A DNA stretch of 64,000 nt from the NCBI GenBank assembly GCA_913055905.1, contig CAJXLB010000009.1, positions 25,840 to 89,839 of the forward strand, read 5' to 3'. The translations under genes were made by a program, and so were the position numbers. Origin of the DNA: an uncultured Winogradskyella sp. (lineage in GTDB: Bacteria > Bacteroidota > Bacteroidia > Flavobacteriales > Flavobacteriaceae). Shown here piece by piece: positions 3,122 through 33,758 of this stretch (position 1 is its first letter; every line of letters begins with the position of its first letter). The notes beneath the pieces were generated by a model that was given only the letters and a program-made list of their open reading frames with translations, was not told the DNA's origin and did no database searches.

Positions 3122-3444
3122 ATATAAAAAACGCACAACAAGACGTTGACAATTGGATAAAGGAACACGGTGTCCGTTATTTTAACGAGCTTACCAATAT
3201 GGCCCAATTGACCGAAGAGGTTGGTGAGGTGGCAAGAATCATTGCGCGTCGTTATGGTGAGCAGAGCGAAAAGGAAAGCGATAAAAATAAGGACTTAGGC
3301 GAAGAATTGGCCGATGTGGTTTTTGTTGTGCTTTGCCTCGCCAATCAAACGGGGATAGACCTTCAAGACGCCTTTGATAAAAAAATGCTAAAAAAAGCAA
3401 ATCGCGATCACGATAGGCACCACAACAATGAGAAATTAAAGTAG
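3118..3444 (+). CDS. MazG-like nucleotide pyrophosphohydrolase
   Basis: This 108-residue all-alpha protein has the MazG-type metal-binding pattern: LTEEVGEVARIIARRYGE near residues 29-46 and DLGEELADVVFVV near residues 60-72. Family members hydrolyse nucleoside triphosphates to the monophosphate and pyrophosphate, usually as house-cleaning enzymes. A single MazG domain fits the short length. It is coupled to the upstream DUF3857 gene by an ATGA overlap and lies 28 nt before aroA. The actual nucleotide substrate cannot be told from sequence. Confidence 0.85.
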   Translation: MNIKNAQQDVDNWIKEHGVRYFNELTNMAQLTEEVGEVARIIARRYGEQSEKESDKNKDLGEELADVVFVVLCLANQTGIDLQDAFDKKMLKKANRDHDRHHNNEKLK

Positions 3445-3472
3445 CTTTGTAGCTAAAGCCTAACTTAAGCTC

Positions 3473-4702
3473 ATGTTATTATCTCTTCAAAAATCGAAAC
3501 TCGTTTCAGGAAAAACCTTGCAAATAACAGGGTCTAAAAGCGAATCGAATAGGTTGTTGTTGCTTCAGGCCTTATTTCCTGAAATTAAGATTTTAAACCT
3601 ATCCAATTCAGATGATACGGTTTTAATGAAAGAAGCATTGTCTTCAGAAGCTGAGGTTGTAGATATTCATCATGCTGGTACGGCTATGCGGTTCCTCACC
3701 GCATTTTTTGCTGTAAAGCCCAAAAGGGAAGTAGTGCTTACAGGCTCGCAACGAATGAAAGAAAGACCCATAGGCATATTGGTCGAGGCCTTGCAAACCT
3801 TGGGTGCGGACATTTCCTATTTGGAAAAACAAGGCTATCCACCGCTAAAAATCAGAGGTAGAAATATTAACAAATCCCAAGTGCGATTAAAGGCTAATGT
3901 CAGTAGTCAGTACATATCGGCATTACTTCTTATTGCGCCAGTATTAAAGCGTGGTCTAACCATAGAATTGGAAGGTACTGTAACTTCTGTGCCTTACATA
4001 AATATGACACTTAGCCTCTTAAATCAATTAGGCATAGAAACCAGTTTTAATGGACAGTTTATAAAGGTGTATCCTTTTAATAAAACTTTGTCCGCTGAGA
4101 AAGTAATTGAGGTTGAATCAGATTGGTCATCCGCTTCCTACTTCTATAGTTTCATAGCGCTGAGTGACGTGGGTACGGAAATAATTTTAAAATCGTATAA
4201 ATCCAATTCACTTCAAGGTGATGCCATATTAGCAAAATTGTATCGCGAATTTGGTGTTGAAACGGTTTTTGAGGGTACAGCGATTAGGTTAAAAAAATCA
4301 GACACCGTTGAAGAGGAATCAAGTTTGGAAATAGATTTGAGCAATGCGCCAGATATAGCCCAAACTATTGCAGTCACCGCATTTGGATTACAAAAGCCAA
4401 TACATTTAACCGGACTTCATACCTTGAAGATTAAGGAGACGGATCGTCTTGTGGCCTTAAAAAATGAATTGACCAAATTAGGTGCCCAAATTGAAATTAC
4501 AGCTAATAGCCTAGAACTTAAGGCTACCCAATCCATAAAGCCAAATGTTGCTATTGCCACTTACAATGACCATAGGATGGCTATGGCCTTTGCACCCTTA
4601 GCATTAAGAACTTCAATTGTTATAGAAGATGCAGACGTGGTGAGTAAATCATACCCTTCATTTTGGGACGATTTACAATCTATTGGCATCATTTTAAAAT
4701 AA
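3473..4702 (+). CDS. aroA: 3-phosphoshikimate 1-carboxyvinyltransferase (EPSP synthase)
   Basis: This 409-residue enzyme catalyses the sixth shikimate-pathway step, joining phosphoenolpyruvate to shikimate 3-phosphate. Visible EPSP synthase marks are SESNRLLLLQAL near the N-terminus (the usual SKS reads SKSES), GTAMRFLTAFF, RMKERPIGILVEAL, SSQYISALLLIAP, and the C-terminal APDIAQTIAV and KIKETDRLVALKNEL segments. The N-terminal and middle motifs are intact, so an active enzyme is expected. Length is slightly below the usual 420-430. It follows the MazG gene and precedes queA, which has its own promoter. Confidence 0.95.
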   Translation: MLLSLQKSKLVSGKTLQITGSKSESNRLLLLQALFPEIKILNLSNSDDTVLMKEALSSEAEVVDIHHAGTAMRFLTAFFAVKPKREVVLTGSQRMKERPIGILVEALQTLGADISYLEKQGYPPLKIRGRNINKSQVRLKANVSSQYISALLLIAPVLKRGLTIELEGTVTSVPYINMTLSLLNQLGIETSFNGQFIKVYPFNKTLSAEKVIEVESDWSSASYFYSFIALSDVGTEIILKSYKSNSLQGDAILAKLYREFGVETVFEGTAIRLKKSDTVEEESSLEIDLSNAPDIAQTIAVTAFGLQKPIHLTGLHTLKIKETDRLVALKNELTKLGAQIEITANSLELKATQSIKPNVAIATYNDHRMAMAFAPLALRTSIVIEDADVVSKSYPSFWDDLQSIGIILK

Positions 4703-26783: not shown

Positions 26784-26806
26784 CATCCTGAATATGTATC
26801 GGGATG
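26784..26806 (+). repeat. Hairpin after the PLP enzyme gene
   Basis: CATCCTGA pairs with TCGGGATG (one T-G wobble) around a seven-base loop, starting 8 nt after the stop at 26775. It is one of two hairpins in the 130-nt gap before paaH. Confidence 0.5.
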
Positions 26807-26881
26807 TTATAATAATTTTACTGTAAGTTCTAGTACCGTCGTAAAAAATGTAAAATTGAAATAGAAGTTTAATTAAAAAGA

Positions 26882-26899
26882 TTCCTGCTTTCGCAGGAA
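26882..26899 (+). repeat. TTTC-loop palindrome before paaH
   Basis: TTCCTGC-TTTC-GCAGGAA is a perfect seven-base stem with a four-base loop. It ends 6 nt before the paaH ATG, so the folded RNA would sit where a ribosome binds. The same design recurs before paaJ and around both GIY-YIG genes. Confidence 0.75.
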
Positions 26900-26905
26900 A
26901 TAATT

Positions 26906-28078
26906 ATGAAAATAGGAATCATAGGGTCAGGGACAATGGGAAGCGGTATTGCACAAGTGGCTGCTACTTCCGGTTGTAACGTAAAATTATATGACACAAA
27001 TCAGGATGCCTTGGATAAGGCGGAAAGGGCTTTAGAGAAAATATTAGCCCGTTTGATAGAAAAAGGCCGAATAGATAATGATGAGAAACATAGAATTCAA
27101 TCCAATATTACCTATGTAAATAGCTTAAAGGATTTAAAGGATTCAGACTTGACCATTGAAGCCATAGTAGAAAATCTTGACATTAAGAAAAAAGTGTTTT
27201 CAGAATTGGAAGGCTATGTTTCACAACAATGTATAATTGCCTCTAATACCTCAAGCTTATCAATAGCCTCCATTGCTGCGTCTTTACAACGACCAGAACG
27301 TTGCATCGGGATTCATTTCTTTAATCCCGCACCGTTAATGAAGTTAGTTGAGGTAATACCTGCAGTACAAACTTCCGATAGCGTTCTCGATGAAACCGTA
27401 AAGATTATCTCTGATTGGAAAAAAACAGTCGCCATTGCTAAAGATACACCAGGCTTTATCGTAAACAGGGTGGCAAGACCTTTCTATGGAGAATCATTGC
27501 GCATTTACGAAGAAGGAATTGCCGATTTCGCAACGATAGATTGGAGTTTGAAAACTGTAGGTGGTTTTAGGATGGGACCGTTTGAGTTAATGGATTTTAT
27601 CGGCAATGATGTCAATTATACCGTAACGGAAACCGTATTTGAAGCATTTTATTACGATGCAAGGTATAAACCGTCATTTACCCAAAAACGCCTTTCAGAA
27701 GCAGGATATTTGGGAAGAAAATCTGGTAAAGGATACTACCAATATGATGAAAGTGGCAAACCCATTGGTGTATTAAATGGCACTTCGAGCGCAGTAGAGA
27801 AGTCTCTAGCAGAGCAAATATTTGATCGTGTTTTGGTCATGCTCATTAATGAAGCCGCAGACGCACTGTTTTTAAACATTGCCTCAGCGGAAGATATTGA
27901 TAATGCCATGACAAAAGGCGTAAATTACCCTAAAGGGCTTTTGGCTTGGGCTGATGAAAAGGGAATTGATTGGTGTGTAGATGAAATGGATAAATTGTAT
28001 AATGAGTACCATGAAGACCGTTACCGGTGCAGTCCATTATTACGTCGAATGAAAAGGCAGAGCAAAACATTTTTTTAA
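26906..28078 (+). CDS. paaH: 3-hydroxyacyl-CoA dehydrogenase PaaH
   Basis: PaaH oxidises 3-hydroxyadipyl-CoA to 3-oxoadipyl-CoA with NAD+. The 390-residue product has the Rossmann GIIGSGTMGSGIAQVAATSG at the N-terminus, SNTSSLSIASIA, HFFNPAPLMKLVEVI and the C-terminal GPFELMDFIGNDVN. It is shorter than the roughly 475-residue Escherichia coli protein; one and a half C-terminal domains are visible. It overlaps paaI by one base. Confidence 0.92.
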   Translation: MKIGIIGSGTMGSGIAQVAATSGCNVKLYDTNQDALDKAERALEKILARLIEKGRIDNDEKHRIQSNITYVNSLKDLKDSDLTIEAIVENLDIKKKVFSELEGYVSQQCIIASNTSSLSIASIAASLQRPERCIGIHFFNPAPLMKLVEVIPAVQTSDSVLDETVKIISDWKKTVAIAKDTPGFIVNRVARPFYGESLRIYEEGIADFATIDWSLKTVGGFRMGPFELMDFIGNDVNYTVTETVFEAFYYDARYKPSFTQKRLSEAGYLGRKSGKGYYQYDESGKPIGVLNGTSSAVEKSLAEQIFDRVLVMLINEAADALFLNIASAEDIDNAMTKGVNYPKGLLAWADEKGIDWCVDEMDKLYNEYHEDRYRCSPLLRRMKRQSKTFF

Positions 28079-28482
28079 TGAAGGGAGAAGCCATTCCATA
28101 CAAAATGCTCTCGCAAGATGCTTTTAGTACTTGGCTGGGCATTGAGATTTTAGAATGTGAGATTGGGCGCTGTAAGGTTGGTATGCGAATACGACCCGAA
28201 ATGCTTAATAGCATGAACAAAGCTCATGGTGGTATAAGCTATGCTTTAGCCGATACGGCTTTTGGATTTGCTGCCAATACCCATGGAAAATATGCGGTTT
28301 CTATCGAAACCAGTATCAATCATATTGAAGCACTGGAAGAGGGAGATTATCTCATAGCAGAGTCGGTCATAGAAAAAGTTAAAAATAAATTAGGATTCAA
28401 TGTAGTAGAAGTGAAGCGTGGCGAAGAATTAGTAGCTTTGTTTAAAGGCATAGTTTATAGAACTCAAAAAGATTGGTATTAA
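28078..28482 (+). CDS. paaI: Hydroxyphenylacetyl-CoA thioesterase PaaI
   Basis: This 134-residue hotdog-fold thioesterase shows WLGIEILECEIGRCKVGM and NSMNKAHGGISYALADTAFG, where the HGG motif and following Asp are active-site features of the PaaI group. It rescues CoA from dead-end phenylacetyl-CoA derivatives. The ATG at 28078 overlaps the paaH stop (TAATG). An in-frame upstream start would lie within paaH. Its stop codon forms the first bases of a palindrome. Confidence 0.92.
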   Translation: MKGEAIPYKMLSQDAFSTWLGIEILECEIGRCKVGMRIRPEMLNSMNKAHGGISYALADTAFGFAANTHGKYAVSIETSINHIEALEEGDYLIAESVIEKVKNKLGFNVVEVKRGEELVALFKGIVYRTQKDWY

Positions 28483-28501
28483 TTCCTGCGTAGGCAGGAA
28501 T
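28482..28501 (+). repeat. Palindrome at the left end of GIY-YIG cassette 1
   Basis: ATTCCTGC-GTAG-GCAGGAAT is a perfect eight-base stem. Its first base is the last base of the paaI stop codon, and it ends 16 nt before the GIY-YIG ATG. The stem sequence TTCCTGC is the same as in the palindrome before paaH. Confidence 0.75.
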
Positions 28502-28517
28502 CTCAATATTGACAGGA

Positions 28518-28838
28518 ATGAAACATTGGTATGTCTACGTAATGGCAAATAAACCAAGAGGAGTGATTTATATTGGAGTTACTGATAATATTGATAAAAG
28601 AGTAAAAGAGCATAAACTTAAAGTTTATCCAAAATCTTTTACCTCCAAGTATAATTGTGATAAATTGGTATATTTTGAAGCGTTTGAGGATGGTGAAAAG
28701 GCTGCGGTTAGGGAAAAACAATTCAAAAAATGGAAAAGACAATGGAAAGTGAATTTGATTGAAGAAATGAACGCTAGTTGGATTGATTTGAGTTTGAATT
28801 GGAATTTAGGAAAGAAGATATTTAGGAATAACATTTAA
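28518..28838 (+). CDS. Small GIY-YIG nuclease-domain protein, copy 1
   Basis: This 106-residue protein is essentially one GIY-YIG domain: WYVYVMANKPRGVIYIGVT supplies the two strands, DKRVKEHK carries the conserved Arg and Lys, and EKQFKKWKRQWKVNLIEEMN holds the late conserved residues. Members of this short family are numerous in Bacteroidota, and their role is not established. It lies between paaI and paaJ, where no nuclease is expected, bracketed by palindromes at 28482-28501 and 28846-28859. A second, clearly related copy lies 3.8 kb downstream in the same operon. Confidence 0.88.
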   Translation: MKHWYVYVMANKPRGVIYIGVTDNIDKRVKEHKLKVYPKSFTSKYNCDKLVYFEAFEDGEKAAVREKQFKKWKRQWKVNLIEEMNASWIDLSLNWNLGKKIFRNNI

Positions 28839-28845
28839 TAAGATA

Positions 28846-28859
28846 CCTGCTTTCGCAGG
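28846..28859 (+). repeat. TTTC-loop palindrome at the right end of cassette 1
   Basis: CCTGC-TTTC-GCAGG has a five-base stem with the same loop as the palindrome before paaH, and flanking TA/CA show the eroded outer stem. It begins 8 nt after the GIY-YIG stop and ends 8 nt before the paaJ ATG. Confidence 0.7.
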
Positions 28860-28867
28860 CATTTATC

Positions 28868-30076
28868 ATGAAAGACGCATATATCATAGACGGAATAAGA
28901 ACACCAATAGGAAATTATAAAGGCACATTATCTGCTGTGAGAACAGATGATTTAGCAGCCCTAGTGATTAAGGAAGTTGTTAGTCGTAACCCAAATATTC
29001 CTAAAGAAGCATACGATGATGTTATCTTGGGTTGTGCCAATCAAGCTGGCGAGGATAACCGTAACGTCGCAAGAATGGCTTCGCTACTGGCAGGATTACC
29101 ATTCACCGTTCCAGGAGAAACGGTTAATAGATTGTGTAGCTCTGGGTTGTCAGCAATAATACATGCCAACAGAGCTATTAAAGCAGGCGATGGAGACGTT
29201 TTCATTTCTGGTGGTGTTGAGAACATGACACGTGGTCCTTATGTTATTGCAAAACCATCAAGTGCATTTGGTAACGACTCAAAAATGTACGATTCGAGTT
29301 TTGGATGGCGCTTCGTGAATCCTAAAATGCATGAGATGTATGGTACCGATGGCATGGGAGTCACTGCCGAAAATCTAGTTTCGACATATAAAATTTCACG
29401 TGAAGATCAAGATAAGTTCGCGTATTGGAGTCAAATGAAAGCCTCCAAAGCACAAGCTAATGGGCGTTTAGCCAAGGAAATCGTAACTGTAGAAATTCCA
29501 CAGCGCAAGAAAGACCCTATTCACTTTGATACGGACGAATTTGTAAAACCAAATACAACCCTTGAGGTTTTGGCTAAGCTTCGACCTGCCTTCAAAAAGG
29601 ATGGAGGCTCCGTAACGGCAGGTAATTCTTCAGGATTAAATGATGGTGCGGCAGCGACCATAATTGCTTCAGATGAGGCTATTCAAAAGTACGGTTTAAA
29701 ACCATTGGCAAGAATTGTAAGTTCTGCCGTAGTTGGCGTAGAACCGCGAATTATGGGTATTGGTCCTGTAGAGGCCTCCAATAGGGCCTTAAAGAAAGCA
29801 GGATTAACCATGAACGATATGGACATCATCGAATTAAATGAAGCCTTTGCGGCTCAAGCTTTGGCTTGTACTAGGGCTTGGGGATTAGCAGACGATGACC
29901 CAAGGTTAAATCCTAATGGCGGCTCCATAGCCATTGGTCACCCTTTGGGTGTAACAGGAACACGAATAGCGTATTCCGCAGCAATGGAATTACACGAACA
30001 ACAAAAACGCTATGCTTTGGTTACCATGTGTATTGGTGTGGGCCAAGGCTATGCAGCAATTTTAGAACGCGTTTAA
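28868..30076 (+). CDS. paaJ: 3-oxoadipyl-CoA/3-oxo-5,6-dehydrosuberyl-CoA thiolase PaaJ
   Basis: PaaJ cleaves two intermediates of the phenylacetate pathway to release acetyl-CoA and finally succinyl-CoA. The 402-residue thiolase has the nucleophilic Cys in NRLCSSGLSAI (about residue 90), the His in GGSIAIGHPLGVTGTR, and the second Cys in TMCIGVGQGYA. One base separates it from paaZ. Confidence 0.93.
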   Translation: MKDAYIIDGIRTPIGNYKGTLSAVRTDDLAALVIKEVVSRNPNIPKEAYDDVILGCANQAGEDNRNVARMASLLAGLPFTVPGETVNRLCSSGLSAIIHANRAIKAGDGDVFISGGVENMTRGPYVIAKPSSAFGNDSKMYDSSFGWRFVNPKMHEMYGTDGMGVTAENLVSTYKISREDQDKFAYWSQMKASKAQANGRLAKEIVTVEIPQRKKDPIHFDTDEFVKPNTTLEVLAKLRPAFKKDGGSVTAGNSSGLNDGAAATIIASDEAIQKYGLKPLARIVSSAVVGVEPRIMGIGPVEASNRALKKAGLTMNDMDIIELNEAFAAQALACTRAWGLADDDPRLNPNGGSIAIGHPLGVTGTRIAYSAAMELHEQQKRYALVTMCIGVGQGYAAILERV

Positions 30077-30077
30077 T

Positions 30078-32615
30078 ATGAAAAAAATACAACACTACGT
30101 TCAAGGTCAATGGACCACAGGAAAGGAAGATGGCTTACCTGTCTATGATGCCATAACTGGGGAAGCCTTTGCAAAAATTGCGATAGAAGGTTTAGATATA
30201 CCAGGCGTCCTAGAATATGGAAGGACAAAGGGAGGTGAAGTGTTACGCAAAATGACCTTTCAGCAACGAGGCAATATGCTCAAAAAATTGGCACTTTATC
30301 TCACCAAAAGAAAAGACGCCTTTTACGACTTAAGCTATAGAACGGGTGCAACCAAAGTAGATAGTTGGATTGATATTGAAGGCGGATTTGGGAATTTGTT
30401 TGCCAATGCTTCGTTACGAAAGCTTTTTCCAAATCAACCTTTCCACGTAGAAGGTGACCCTATCGATTTGTCACGAGGCGGCCGCTTTATGGCACATCAT
30501 ATTATGGTGCCAAAAAGAGGTGTAGCTATACACATTAACGCCTTTAATTTTCCCGTTTGGGGAATGTTGGAAAAGTGCGCCGTTAACTGGATGGCAGGTG
30601 TGCCTGCCGTTGTCTTGCCAGCGCCATCGTCATCGTATTTGGCCGAAGCGGTTGCTAGAACTATAATTGACTCAGGAATTCTGCCAGAAGGGGCTTTGCA
30701 AATCATAAATGGCACAATTACCAATATATTGGATACTGTAGAATCCCAGGATGTGGTAACCTTCACAGGGTCGGCATCCACAGGGCGTTTACTAAAAGCA
30801 CATCCAAGATTAATTGAAGAATCGGTACCCTTTACAACCGAAGCAGATTCGCTAAATGCTTCCATACTTGGAGAAGATGCCGTTCCTGGTACGCCGGAAT
30901 TCGATTTATTCATTAAGGAAGTTCGTAAGGAGATGACCGTAAAAGCAGGGCAGAAATGTACCGCTATAAGGCGAGTCATCGTGCCGGAGAATTTGGTAGA
31001 GGATGTTCAAATAGCCTTAGGCAAAGCGCTTGATAAAGTCACTATCGGTGACCCAAGACTTAAGGAGGTAAGAATGGGTTCTTTGATTAGTCAGCAGCAA
31101 GTAAAGGCGGTTCAGGATGCCGTTAACGATTTAGCGAAAGAGGCACAAATAGTCTATGGAAACCTTGATAAAATTGAGACAGTTGGTGCTGATGCTAAGA
31201 AAGGAGCATTTATTAGTCCAATTCTTCTTAGAACGGACCGTCCATTTGAAAATACTATCGTTCATGAACGTGAGGCCTTTGGTCCTGTAAGCACTATTAT
31301 GCCCTATAAGACCATGGAAGAAGCAGTTGCTTTAGCTAAAATGGGTAAAGGGTCATTAGTGTCCTCAATCGCAACGTTTGATGACAAAATCGCTACTGAT
31401 TATGTAGTCAACGCTGCTAGCCATCACGGAAGAATTTTAGTGCTAAATAGGGAAAGTGCCAAAGAGAGTACAGGACATGGTTCGCCACTGCCCTATCTGG
31501 TTCATGGTGGTCCAGGAAGAGCTGGAGGTGGTGAAGAAATGGGAGGTCTGCGTGGTATTAAGCACTATTTGCAACGAACTGCCATTCAAGGTACACCAAC
31601 GACCATTACAGCAATTACGGGAATCTATCAACAAAACGCTAAATACAAAGAGGCAGAAGAGCATCCATTTAAATATCATTGGGAAGACATACAACCAGGA
31701 ATGTCGCTTAAAACCCATAAGCGAACACTGACAGATTCGGATATTATCAACTTTGCCAATCTCACCTGGGATCATTTCTATGCACACACGGATATTACCT
31801 CATTGGATGGCAGTATTTTTAAAAAGCGCACGGCGCATGGGTATTTCATCATTTCTGCAGCAGCGGGACTGTTTGTATATCCAAATAAAGGACCTGTTGC
31901 AGCAAACTATGGTTTGGACAGTATCCGATTTTTGAGGCCTTTGTATCATAATGATACTATTTATGTGCGTTTGACCTGTAAAGAAAAAGTGGATCGTGAT
32001 GTCGCTTCGGCAGAACATCCAAGCGGTATTGTAAAATGGCATGTTGAGGTGTTCGATGCAAATTTTGAAAACAGACCAGATAGTCAGAAAACAGCTAAGG
32101 ACAGTCCGCTTGTGGCAGTTGCTACTATTTTAACCATGGTGCAAAAGAAACAAGAAACATTTGTAGAAATTAATAGAGAAACTATTGAGGGCTATTTAAA
32201 TAAGCTAACCGAAGACACCAAGCCACTCTGGGGAAGTATGACACCGCAGCACATGGTGGAGCATTTGGAGTACTCCACTAGAATCTCATCTGGAGAAATT
32301 CAGGATTTTGAGTTTTCTACGCCAGAGAAGATTATGGAAAAAGTACATGCGACGCTCTATAATTATGAAAAAATGCCAAGGGATTTTGCTGCTCCACCAC
32401 AATTGGAGGAAGAATTAAAGACCTTAAAGCACGAAAATCTGGAGACTGCCAAGCAAAAGCTGCTTGAGGCTTATGACGATCACATTGCCTATTTCAAGGA
32501 GTATCCAGAGGCTACTTTAAAGAATATCGTATTTGGACATCTCAATCGATATGAATGGAATTTGTTCCATAGAAAACATTACAATCATCACTTTGAACAA
32601 TTCAATCTGTTATGA
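30078..32615 (+). CDS. paaZ: PaaZ ring-opening enzyme fused to a DinB/DUF1569-like domain
   Basis: PaaZ opens the oxepin ring and oxidises the aldehyde product. Residues 1-520 are an aldehyde dehydrogenase, with the Glu in FTTEADSLNASI and the nucleophile in VKAGQKCTAIRR (about residue 296). Residues 535-685 are a MaoC-type hydratase with WDHFYAHTD and RTAHGYFI. At 845 residues it is about 160 longer than the Escherichia coli enzyme. The extra residues 687-845 look like a DUF1569/DinB four-helix domain, with His residues in QHMVEHL, GHLNRYEWN and HRKHYNHHFEQF that could bind a metal. The last six codons and the stop lie in a long inverted repeat. Confidence 0.93.
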   Translation: MKKIQHYVQGQWTTGKEDGLPVYDAITGEAFAKIAIEGLDIPGVLEYGRTKGGEVLRKMTFQQRGNMLKKLALYLTKRKDAFYDLSYRTGATKVDSWIDIEGGFGNLFANASLRKLFPNQPFHVEGDPIDLSRGGRFMAHHIMVPKRGVAIHINAFNFPVWGMLEKCAVNWMAGVPAVVLPAPSSSYLAEAVARTIIDSGILPEGALQIINGTITNILDTVESQDVVTFTGSASTGRLLKAHPRLIEESVPFTTEADSLNASILGEDAVPGTPEFDLFIKEVRKEMTVKAGQKCTAIRRVIVPENLVEDVQIALGKALDKVTIGDPRLKEVRMGSLISQQQVKAVQDAVNDLAKEAQIVYGNLDKIETVGADAKKGAFISPILLRTDRPFENTIVHEREAFGPVSTIMPYKTMEEAVALAKMGKGSLVSSIATFDDKIATDYVVNAASHHGRILVLNRESAKESTGHGSPLPYLVHGGPGRAGGGEEMGGLRGIKHYLQRTAIQGTPTTITAITGIYQQNAKYKEAEEHPFKYHWEDIQPGMSLKTHKRTLTDSDIINFANLTWDHFYAHTDITSLDGSIFKKRTAHGYFIISAAAGLFVYPNKGPVAANYGLDSIRFLRPLYHNDTIYVRLTCKEKVDRDVASAEHPSGIVKWHVEVFDANFENRPDSQKTAKDSPLVAVATILTMVQKKQETFVEINRETIEGYLNKLTEDTKPLWGSMTPQHMVEHLEYSTRISSGEIQDFEFSTPEKIMEKVHATLYNYEKMPRDFAAPPQLEEELKTLKHENLETAKQKLLEAYDDHIAYFKEYPEATLKNIVFGHLNRYEWNLFHRKHYNHHFEQFNLL

Positions 32616-32630
32616 GATTGAATTGTTCAA
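32593..32630 (+). repeat. 16-bp perfect inverted repeat across the paaZ stop
   Basis: TTGAACAATTCAATCT at 32593-32608 is repeated inverted and without mismatch at 32615-32630, with the six-base loop GTTATG. The left arm is paaZ coding sequence and the right arm begins at the last base of the stop codon. There is no T tract. It is followed after two bases by another palindrome. Confidence 0.85.
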
Positions 32631-32632
32631 AG

Positions 32633-32650
32633 CTTCCGAGAAATCGGAAG
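32633..32650 (+). repeat. Palindrome at the left end of GIY-YIG cassette 2
   Basis: CTTCCGA-GAAA-TCGGAAG is a perfect seven-base stem. Read on the other strand its loop is TTTC, the same as in three other palindromes of the operon. It lies 21 nt before the GIY-YIG start. Confidence 0.75.
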
Positions 32651-32671
32651 TCTCTAACAGGATAGATTAAT

Positions 32672-32956
32672 TTGAACTTCAATGTCTACATAATAACCAA
32701 TAGGAAAGATGGCGTTTTATACATCGGTAAAACTAAAAGATTAAAGCAAAGAATCTTTCAGCACAAGAACAAGGTTCATCCTAACGCTTTTTCTGCCAGA
32801 TATGGATTAGATAAATTAGTCTATTTTGAGAAGTTTAAATCAGAAGAGGAGGCAAGAATTAGAGAAAAAAGAATGAAGAAGTGGAATAGAAAGTGGAAAA
32901 TAGAATTAATTGAAAAAATGAATCCCTATTGGAGGGATTTATCTAAAGATTTATAA
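32672..32956 (+). CDS. Small GIY-YIG nuclease-domain protein, copy 2
   Basis: This 94-residue protein is a homologue of the copy at 28518, with close to half of its residues identical by eye (shared YIG, HK, DKLVYFE, REK, KKW and WK segments). The GIY-YIG core is NVYIITNRKDGVLYIGKT followed by QRIFQHKNKVHP. The start is TTG at 32672, since no ATG or GTG precedes the core in this frame. It sits between paaZ and the enoyl-CoA hydratase, bracketed by palindromes at 32633-32650 and 32976-32993, in the same direction as the operon. The two nucleotide sequences have diverged well beyond a recent duplication. Confidence 0.85.
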   Translation: MNFNVYIITNRKDGVLYIGKTKRLKQRIFQHKNKVHPNAFSARYGLDKLVYFEKFKSEEEARIREKRMKKWNRKWKIELIEKMNPYWRDLSKDL

Positions 32957-32975
32957 ATAACAATTAAATAAAAGT

Positions 32976-32993
32976 TTCCCGTTTTCACGGGAA
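32976..32993 (+). repeat. TTTC-loop palindrome at the right end of cassette 2
   Basis: TTCCCGT-TTTC-ACGGGAA is a perfect seven-base stem with the four-base loop TTTC. It begins 20 nt after the GIY-YIG stop and ends 12 nt before the next ATG. Confidence 0.75.
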
Positions 32994-33005
32994 CACATTA
33001 ATGTG

Positions 33006-33758
33006 ATGAATAAAGCATACGTAAAACAACATATTGAAAATGGCGTAGGATATATTGAATTTTTCCATCCTGCGCACAATTCATTGCCAGGGGATATCTT
33101 GGCAAAATTGGCAAATACCATTACTGAAGCCGGTAACAATGACAAGATAAAAGTTATTGTTCTAAAAAGTGGAGGAGATAGGACCTTCTGTGCAGGCGCT
33201 AGTTTCAATGAGCTCATAAACATTGATGATGAAGCTACCGGCAAGGTATTCTTTTCGGGTTTTGCCAATGTTATCAATGCCATGCGCAAGTGCCCCAAAT
33301 TTATAATAGGTAGGGTTCAAGGAAAAACCGTGGGAGGTGGTGTTGGTGTCGCATCGGCAACGGACTACTGCATGGCTACAAAATATGCCTCTATAAAATT
33401 AAGTGAACTTAATGTAGGCATTGGTCCTTTTGTGGTAGGTCCTGCAGTTGAGCGTAAATTGGGCTTAAGTGGCATGTCTCAAATCGCTATAGATGCTAAC
33501 AGTTTTTATTCTGCCGAGTGGGCTAAAAACAAAGGGCTTTACGCACAGGTATTTGACACCACGGAAGCATTGGACGAAGGTGTTAGAACCTTTGCAGAAC
33601 ATTTGTGCACCTATAATCCCGAAGCAATGCGAGAAATGAAAAAAATGTTCTGGACAGGTACAGAAGATTGGGATGATTTACTCGCAGAGCGTGCAGCCAT
33701 TAGTGGTCGCCTAGTCTTAAGCGAATTCACCAAAGAGACTTTAAAACGTTTTAAATAA
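33006..33758 (+). CDS. Enoyl-CoA hydratase/isomerase-family protein, PaaF-like
   Basis: This 250-residue crotonase-fold protein has oxyanion-hole segments RTFCAGASFNEL (about residue 60) and QGKTVGGGVGVASATDYCMA. LSELNVGIGPFVVG provides one Glu where hydratases have a catalytic residue. Its place in the operon and the absence of another candidate suggest it is PaaF, the hydratase of 2,3-dehydroadipyl-CoA, but the sequence alone does not prove this. The ATG at 33006 is preferred to the GTG just before it. Its stop abuts the paaY start. Confidence 0.82.
   Translation: MNKAYVKQHIENGVGYIEFFHPAHNSLPGDILAKLANTITEAGNNDKIKVIVLKSGGDRTFCAGASFNELINIDDEATGKVFFSGFANVINAMRKCPKFIIGRVQGKTVGGGVGVASATDYCMATKYASIKLSELNVGIGPFVVGPAVERKLGLSGMSQIAIDANSFYSAEWAKNKGLYAQVFDTTEALDEGVRTFAEHLCTYNPEAMREMKKMFWTGTEDWDDLLAERAAISGRLVLSEFTKETLKRFK

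Follow-up and report, generated by a model that had tools for sequence, protein, structure and literature searches.

GIY-YIG nuclease genes between outward-facing REP palindromes: a candidate enzyme for CGTC-tagged REPs and their tagless relatives

In the paa cluster analyzed here, a gene for a small GIY-YIG nuclease stands between paaI and paaJ with a palindrome on each side, which raises the question of what such a gene does at this place and how the palindromes belong to it. The window, that is, the whole stretch of 64,000 nucleotides under analysis, lies on contig C9 of a genome of 2.95 Mb in 13 contigs; the names of the paa cluster genes were assigned by reading of the sequence.

Two palindrome-bounded units in the window

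A sequence-only reading of the window had described a GIY-YIG gene of 106 residues between two palindromes, and both the sequence and an ORF check agree with its coordinates (Table 1). The reading frame begins at the ATG at 28518, and a possible upstream TTG start at 28509 would extend it to 109 codons. As that reading also had it, the left palindrome begins on the last base of the paaI stop codon (TAA, 28480-28482). The right palindrome is inverted with respect to the left one, judged by loop polarity, and paaJ starts at 28868, eight bases past it. The parallel unit (palindrome, GIY-YIG ORF, palindrome) is real as well, lying at 32633-32993 downstream of a paaZ-like gene, with palindrome sequences unlike those of unit 1. 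The gene that follows the solo palindrome of Table 1 is presumably a 3-hydroxyacyl-CoA dehydrogenase.

Table 1. Positions of the nuclease genes and palindromes in the window
Feature	Positions	Strand	Description	Basis
Left palindrome, unit 1	28482-28501	+	ATTCCTGC-GTAG-GCAGGAAT; 8-bp stem, GNAN loop	Sequence reading
Gene, unit 1	28518-28838	+	Single-domain GIY-YIG nuclease, 106 aa	ORF call, Pfam, AlphaFold
Right palindrome, unit 1	28846-28859	+	CCTGC-TTTC-GCAGG; 5-bp stem	
Left palindrome, unit 2	32633-32650	+	CTTCCGA-GAAA-TCGGAAG	Sequence reading, folding
Gene, unit 2	32672-32956	+	Single-domain GIY-YIG nuclease, 94 aa, TTG start	ORF call, Pfam
Right palindrome, unit 2	32976-32993	+	TTCCCGT-TTTC-ACGGGAA	Sequence reading, folding
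Solo palindrome	26882-26899	+	TTCCTGC-TTTC-GCAGGAA; no adjoining GIY-YIG gene; directly upstream of gene at 26906	

Both palindromes of unit 1 fold as single-stranded DNA hairpins better than shuffled sequences do (z of -6.6 and -3.7), and hairpin folding as DNA holds for the window palindromes in general. The GTAG of unit 1 is a loop, one among several GNAN loops, and is distinct from the GTAG foot of RAYT REPs. In the available part of the description of the CGTC-tagged REPs (Di Nocera et al. 2013, PMC3733652), these repeats have a stem of 8-9 bp starting with A-T, a loop of 4-5 nt, a CGTC or TGTC foot and a CCA tail, and form outward (HH) pairs. Stem and loop measure 8 bp and 4 nt in the left palindrome of unit 1, 5 and 4 in its right one, and 7 and 4 in unit 2. 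The palindromes of both units lack the CGTC/TGTC tag and the CCA tail, the left one of unit 1 having CTCA as its inner tail and no GTC tag; since the window units fail the tag test, they are not classed as CGTC REPs in the strict sense. They appear instead to form a tagless branch, which is like the tagged repeats in loop polarity and layout.

Separately, a perfect 18-bp inverted repeat lies at 32591-32632, its left arm formed by the last codons of the paaZ-like gene. Three relatives (L034, L036 and L044) carry similar arms with matching changes, as judged by eye, and the repeat may therefore be maintained.

A compact nuclease domain under purifying selection

Both window proteins match PF01541 well above its cut-off (62.2 and 59.4 bits, against 22.6), the Pfam GIY-YIG E value for unit 1 being 6e-17. 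In an alignment of 30 sequences, Y7, Y18, E66 and N85 are invariant and R28 is conserved in at least 90%; we take these to be the Tyr-Tyr-Arg-Glu-Asn type residues conserved in GIY-YIG enzymes, whose roles we assume to be the customary ones. AlphaFold predicts one compact domain for the unit 1 protein (mean pLDDT 89, pTM 0.81). The nearest solved folds are the UPF0213 entry 1zg2 and then Slx1, all with weak E values (best 5e-3), and the nearest solved proteins by sequence are 1zg2, 1ywl and UvrC; the stand-alone nuclease presumably belongs to the group of COG2827/UPF0213-like proteins.

Within the paa clade, dN/dS is 0.04-0.19 for the scorable non-identical pairs, where dS is often above 1 and near-identical and saturated pairs are uninformative. 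Judged by these ratios, the nuclease gene of the unit is under purifying selection. Such strong selection would suit a host function, in which a domesticated nuclease would trim hairpins or cruciforms formed by REPs, at the DNA or RNA level, and its gene would lie beside the repeats for regulation, as would the place of the structure-specific Slx1 nucleases as nearest folds after UPF0213. However, within one genus the gene is patchily present, with 0-9 copies per genome, its positions change, copies occur in tandem and one is broken (in genome G059), and no match at E ≤1e-15 is found in 171 of 240 Alphaproteobacteria. A host function is thus an improbable explanation.

Palindrome type follows protein subfamily within the genus

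In the genome of the window, CCTGCNNNNGCAGG occurs at eight places, three of them in the paa cluster, and its reversed control at none. There are also eight PF01541 matches: the two window units, four single-domain copies that adjoin tRNA genes, and two larger proteins with open frames of 603 and 457 aa, which by reading are UvrC and a DEDD-exonuclease fusion, respectively (L006 and L007). Relatives of the unit 1 protein are present in 54 of 60 genomes of the genus, and TTCCTGCNNNNGCAGGAA in 56 of 60, with 0-74 copies per genome (three in the genome of the window) and none for the reversed control throughout.

From the genus, 90 GIY-YIG loci were fetched and 89 used, one being too short. A GC-rich hairpin with a stem of at least 6 bp is observed in both 200-bp flanks of 31 of these, against 1 of 267 control window pairs, and tagged heads-out REPs stand on both sides in 16 of 89, against 0 of 267. 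In these counts the 89 loci are not independent cases, because many are inherited copies of one insertion; for example, 9 of the 16 represent a single one.

When the loci are ordered by the protein tree, palindrome type follows protein subfamily. The HQYYLY subfamily has (A)TTCCTGC stems in 12 of 12 loci, 6 of them with a tagged outward pair. In the THERNH subfamily, the stems are A[AC]TGCGCA with 5-nt loops and the tagged outward pair is present in 9 of 9; all nine have a common upstream flank (36 of 36 pairs), that is, they descend from one inherited insertion, so that subfamily counts are not counts of independent insertions. The QYYVYILSN subfamily has ATTCCGCA with 5-nt loops in 3 of 4 loci. 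In the clade of unit 2, CACCCGA-GAAA or a similar palindrome is paired with TTCCCGT-TTTC, and in much of the clade of unit 1, ATTCCTGC is found with (TA)CCTGC-TTTC. Hairpins on both sides are rare or absent in five further subfamilies, with 1 of 31 loci in total (NYWVYI 0/10, KPGYVYI 0/7, YRTTxY 1/8, NRTVLY 0/4 and NKTVLY 0/2).

Among the 33 paa-type loci, none has a tagged heads-out pair. In 20 of them, an upstream GNAN loop is combined with a downstream NTNC, its reverse complement; one has NTNC on both sides, and 12 have no hairpin, or another loop, on one side. This polarity suggests that paa-type hairpins face outward despite the missing GTC tag. The numbers of GIY-YIG genes and REPs per genome correlate weakly within the genus (rho 0.37; partial 0.33 on genome size, which itself gives 0.57), and this correlation, being partly one of genome size, was set aside as support.

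The four copies beside tRNA genes (L002 at C1:168364, the tandem L004/L005 at C1:922070 and 922371, 301 bp apart, and L008 at C2:253250) adjoin intact tRNA genes for Leu, Arg and Pro. Visual inspection shows, upstream of each, a partial tRNA copy broken up by at least one hairpin, which for Leu and Arg seems to sit in the D-loop. These copies may represent a second type of element that uses tRNA genes. As a general rule, tRNA targeting was rejected, since none of 20 weak-hit loci, nor any of the 60 REP-type loci from the genus, has a tRNA.

Occupied, gene-less and empty sites

The insertion site of unit 1 was surveyed in the genus for 50 of the 55 paaJ matches. A GIY-YIG unit lies between paaI and paaJ in five (G000, G001, G027, G045 and G059), the gene being broken in the last. 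Two carry a gene-less palindrome pair of 95-96 bp (G034 and G009), one a 214-bp remnant with both palindromes (G057), and two a solo REP of a different class (G036 and G041). Twelve junctions are clean: 5-26 bp separate the end of the paaI alignment from paaJ, and no palindrome is present. In the others, 87 bp without hairpin (two), foreign genes (eight), or another gene of about 1 kb or a paaI out of reach (18) are observed.

The foreign genes are six ORFs of 149-187 codons (L048, L060, L065, L071, L076 and L156), several of them alike near their starts, and a 23S_rRNA_IVP-family gene in two genomes (L072 in G054 and L075 in G030; PF05635, tested for L075). The latter is bordered, by eye, by ACCTCA/TGAGGT-like repeats and is perhaps another small mobile gene.

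A second case is found in Azospirillum lipoferum 4B, where a GIY-YIG gene lies between sufB and sufC with one whole REP pair on each side. The same junction is empty in six other Azospirillum records (A. ramasamyi, A. oryzae, A. sp. B510, A. argentinense, A. thermophilum and A. brasilense), although the intergenic flanks of these empty sites are so strongly divergent that a target duplication is unreadable. The Rhizobium CIAT894 and R. tumorigenes loci were not useful as empty-site cases. The comparison of paaI-paaJ junctions for empty sites that the sequence-only reading had proposed therefore comes out in favor of its interpretation, and alleles with and without the unit, as known for transposable elements, exist at both sites.

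These alleles bear on the main rival explanation, homing into existing REPs, where the repeats would be targets already spread by another agent, the nuclease would cut a REP and its gene would be copied into the break. GIY-YIG is a classic homing nuclease fold, the A. lipoferum gene between two REP pairs has the expected appearance, and a similarity to group I intron endonucleases exists, far below threshold (NCBIfam score 21.9, cut-off 56). On the other hand, the clean empty sites (12 of 50 at paaI-paaJ and the six Azospirillum records) have no REP into which homing could have occurred. Moreover, an Rfam scan of positions 26800-33200 gives no intron or RNA family above the cut-offs, and an intron or known RNA as host of the gene was accordingly rejected.

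Outward-facing CGTC REPs beside related genes in distant bacteria

A search of a plasmid collection with the flavobacterial protein returned 33 records, mainly from Rhizobium, Sphingobium, Sinorhizobium and Shinella, and also from Neisseria, Azospirillum and Novosphingobium. Hosts of CGTC REPs named in the part of PMC3733652 available include Azospirillum lipoferum, Sinorhizobium meliloti, Novosphingobium aromaticivorans and neisseriae. Outward CGTC REPs surround the GIY-YIG gene in 9 of 16 fetched loci of this collection. The REPs on either side of the gonococcal gene are of the dRS3 type, but the two closest to it point inward; variant hairpins are seen at two Sinorhizobium loci, and a clean REP pair is missing at the Planktothrix, R. 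tumorigenes, Photobacterium and Spirosoma loci.

A scoring rule was fixed after these 16 loci (stem of at least 7 bp, GTC or GAC foot, 250-bp flanks) and used on a fresh set of 80 loci among the matches listed of one genome scan, 75 of which remained after five were dropped at contig ends. Of the 75 loci among these listed matches, 41 have an outward tagged REP in each flank, whereas none of 246 distant control windows does; hairpins of any kind occur on both sides in 50 of 75, against 4 of 246. A heads-in pair on both sides is present in 12 of the 75, and 34 fail the strict outward-tag test. In a second set, 25 of 59 loci have outward tagged REPs on both sides, against 0 of 171 windows; 12 of the 59 overlap the first set, and a recount without them gives 19 of 47. 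Judging from record titles, the 41 loci include classes of Pseudomonadota, Bacteroidota, Planctomycetes, Desulfobacteraceae, Omnitrophota, a cyanobacterium, Chloroflexota, Campylobacterales, Atribacteria, Ignavibacteriaceae, Buchananbacteria and Rifleibacterium, and many of the genomes behind them are MAGs. Among adjacent tagged REPs at most 120 bp apart in the fetched loci, some of which overlap, 53 pairs are heads-out, 41 heads-in and 11 same-way, so the outward pair is not dominant in these loci.

A different reading is that REPs and small selfish genes both gather in tolerated intergenic places with no functional link between them. REPs are indeed intergenic, and the paaI-paaJ site has received other genes in eight genomes, as described above. 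Nonetheless, of the 119 other ORFs of 100 aa or longer from the 80 loci of the fresh set, none has outward REPs on both sides (0 of 46 for those of 100-200 aa). The expectation of the sequence-only reading that palindromes are commoner beside GIY-YIG genes than elsewhere thus holds, and a mere shared location, under which palindromes would not be expected to follow protein subfamilies, becomes very improbable.

Several further observations concern these collections. At positions ~3300-3560 of a Leptolyngbya MAG locus (L196), three near-identical outward REP pairs adjoin the GIY-YIG gene in tandem with an 89-bp period. On a Planktothrix plasmid (L141), the gene without clean REP pair has an MmeI-type restriction gene on one side and the DISARM gene drmA on the other. 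Four PLSDB records labelled as plasmids (CP090106.1, NZ_CP104135.1, NZ_CP119140.1 and NZ_AP026896.1) have chromosome-like sizes of 2.2-4.9 Mb and may be mislabelled chromosomes. Phage cargo was rejected as an identity for the gene, with no match in 50,697 phage records; a search of viral contigs gave 91 relatives, 80 of which were retained.

Matched ends and unit boundaries

Left and right stems were compared at 72 loci whose proteins are distinct and whose flanks both bear a tagged REP. In 54 of these loci, 7 or 8 of the 8 stem positions are identical, a level that 20% of stem pairs taken from different loci reach (permutation p 1e-4). Stem identity also follows from protein identity, though the relation is loose (Mantel r 0.25, p 6e-4). 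Neither the orientation of the repeats, nor the matched stems, nor this co-variation is expected if genes and REPs merely share tolerated places.

Gene-less REP pairs mostly have a spacing of 20-60 bp. The chromosome of Desulfosarcina widdelii (G085) has 179 CGTC-type sites, and among the sites listed many form hetero-pairs about 20 bp apart, one member with a 4-nt and the other with a 5-nt loop. Such dispersed hetero-pairs lead one to expect a GIY-YIG locus with the same two REP classes, an expectation unrecorded beforehand, and one of the three GIY-YIG matches of this genome (L259) has both, with ATTCCGGC upstream and ATTCCGGC plus ATGCCGGG downstream. Also, in Kordia two REP classes are common to the GIY-YIG loci and to the pairs listed.

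The extent of homology was examined in 52 pairs of copies in different contexts with at least 76% identity, of which 19 were scorable on the left and 15 on the right. On the left, homology ends between -1 and +10 bp from the outer REP edge in 19 of 19; on the right, it ends within 0-8 bp of that edge in 9 of 15 and is off by 31-85 bp in 6 of 15. This supports the first of the two roles, ends or targets, that the sequence-only reading had offered for the palindromes. For homing, the inclusion of the REPs in the homology between copies is an adverse observation.

REPs accompany the GIY-YIG gene and not the RAYT domain

In a sample of 240 alphaproteobacterial genomes, 69 have the gene at E ≤1e-15. 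REP sites were scored as GTCATNCC-N10-13-GGNATCC, a pattern that misses REPs with other stems. Of the 69 genomes with the gene, 42 have at least five such REPs and 27 have fewer; of the 171 lacking it, 12 have at least five (odds ratio 20.6, Fisher p 4e-18, a value that overstates the case because genomes are related).

The RAYT domain (Y1_Tnp, PF01797) occurs in 53 of the 240, and overall 18 of 53 genomes with it and 36 of 187 without it have at least five REPs (p 0.04). When the sample is stratified, the effect of the GIY-YIG gene is observed in Y1_Tnp-negative (25 of 46 vs 11 of 141) and Y1_Tnp-positive genomes (17 of 23 vs 1 of 30). The effect of Y1_Tnp is not significant either within genomes lacking the GIY-YIG gene (1 of 30 vs 11 of 141, p 0.69) or within those having it (17 of 23 vs 25 of 46, p 0.19). 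Moreover, Y1_Tnp has no match in the genome of the window and none in 34 of 60 genomes of the genus. REPs thus go with GIY-YIG presence and not with the RAYT domain, in both RAYT strata, and RAYT is disfavored as the spreading agent by all of these controls. The same result argues against homing, which needs another agent to spread the repeats; together with the empty sites and homology edges, it leaves that main rival doubtful, yet clearly less improbable than a host function.

A probable minimal mobile element

The REPs face outward, their stems match, protein and stem co-vary, the co-occurrence of gene and REPs does not depend on RAYT, and empty alleles exist. In view of all this, the best candidate for a cognate enzyme of CGTC-type REPs is the GIY-YIG nuclease. 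We consider it likely, on comparative grounds, that the arrangement REP, GIY-YIG gene, REP is a minimal mobile element whose nuclease serves both the CGTC-tagged REP superfamily and its tagless relatives as their cognate enzyme. In the proposed mechanism, two inverted, outward-facing REP-type palindromes would enclose one gene, that of a stand-alone GIY-YIG nuclease. A REP hairpin would form by extrusion, either on single-stranded DNA or in a cruciform; the nuclease would recognize its stem sequence and its fold and cut it close to the base. GIY-YIG enzymes hydrolyze DNA without a covalent intermediate, and host replication and repair would therefore have to complete the copying of the REP-bounded segment into a new site. 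Gene-less REP pairs would be non-autonomous derivatives mobilized in trans. Of the small mobile element first suggested for this locus, the palindrome-bounded unit, the empty alleles and the homology edges stand as observed, and mobility itself is what we infer from them.

A broader proposition, on which our judgment is evenly balanced, is that these units constitute a new class of mobile element, with a single GIY-YIG nuclease as sole enzyme and hairpin REPs as ends, each enzyme being matched to its own hairpin. Such elements would drive the CGTC REP families, including Neisseria dRS3, and gene-less pairs across at least 10 phyla by cut-and-repair copying, with no transposase.

The pairing would name a testable enzyme for a large REP superfamily of many bacteria whose spreader is left open in the available part of PMC3733652. 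It also suggests that systems of REPs plus enzyme arose with two unrelated enzymes, and it offers small nucleases that are each possibly matched to a particular DNA hairpin.

Comparison with known systems

Among the matches listed in a search of open-access PMC titles and abstract starts (subscription papers and preprints lie outside it), no link between GIY-YIG genes and REPs was found; in the accessible parts of PMC9465073 and PMC10928387, the sought terms stand in unrelated places.

The UPF0213/COG2827 proteins include the closest solved sequences (PDB codes: 1zg2 and 1ywl), the former also being the closest fold, but these entries are named only as hypothetical proteins and mention no repeat partner. 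Slx1 is a neighbor in GIY-YIG fold and acts on branched DNA, whereas it carries further domains and a partner and is not known to be mobile. Group I intron and free-standing GIY-YIG homing endonucleases carry this domain as part of a selfish gene; however, here no intron is found, the protein is a single domain, the ends are palindromic and the NCBIfam score is far under threshold (21.9 vs 56).

RAYT (TnpA-REP) with its GTAG REPs and REPINs shares with the present units one small gene between inverted REPs, and by analogy it works in a similar way, with dispersed REP pairs and co-evolution of gene and repeat. The comparison made in the sequence-only reading is thus apt as an analogy; nevertheless, the GIY-YIG nuclease is unrelated to the HUH tyrosine enzyme, the foot differs and the genome of the window has no Y1_Tnp.

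The closest correspondence is with the CGTC-tagged REP superfamily, which, in the available part of Di Nocera et al. (2013, PMC3733652), includes Neisseria dRS3 and Rickettsia RPE-4/RPE-6 and is said to 'apparently lack a dedicated transposase'. Many REPs beside relatives of the window nuclease match the stem, loop, foot, tail and HH pairing given there, and dRS3-type REPs flank the gonococcal gene left and right, with the nearest two inward. The window palindromes differ in having neither tag nor tail and, in one case, a 5-bp stem. The tagged REPs were described, as far as that part goes, with no dedicated enzyme, whereas here a GIY-YIG gene stands in that place.
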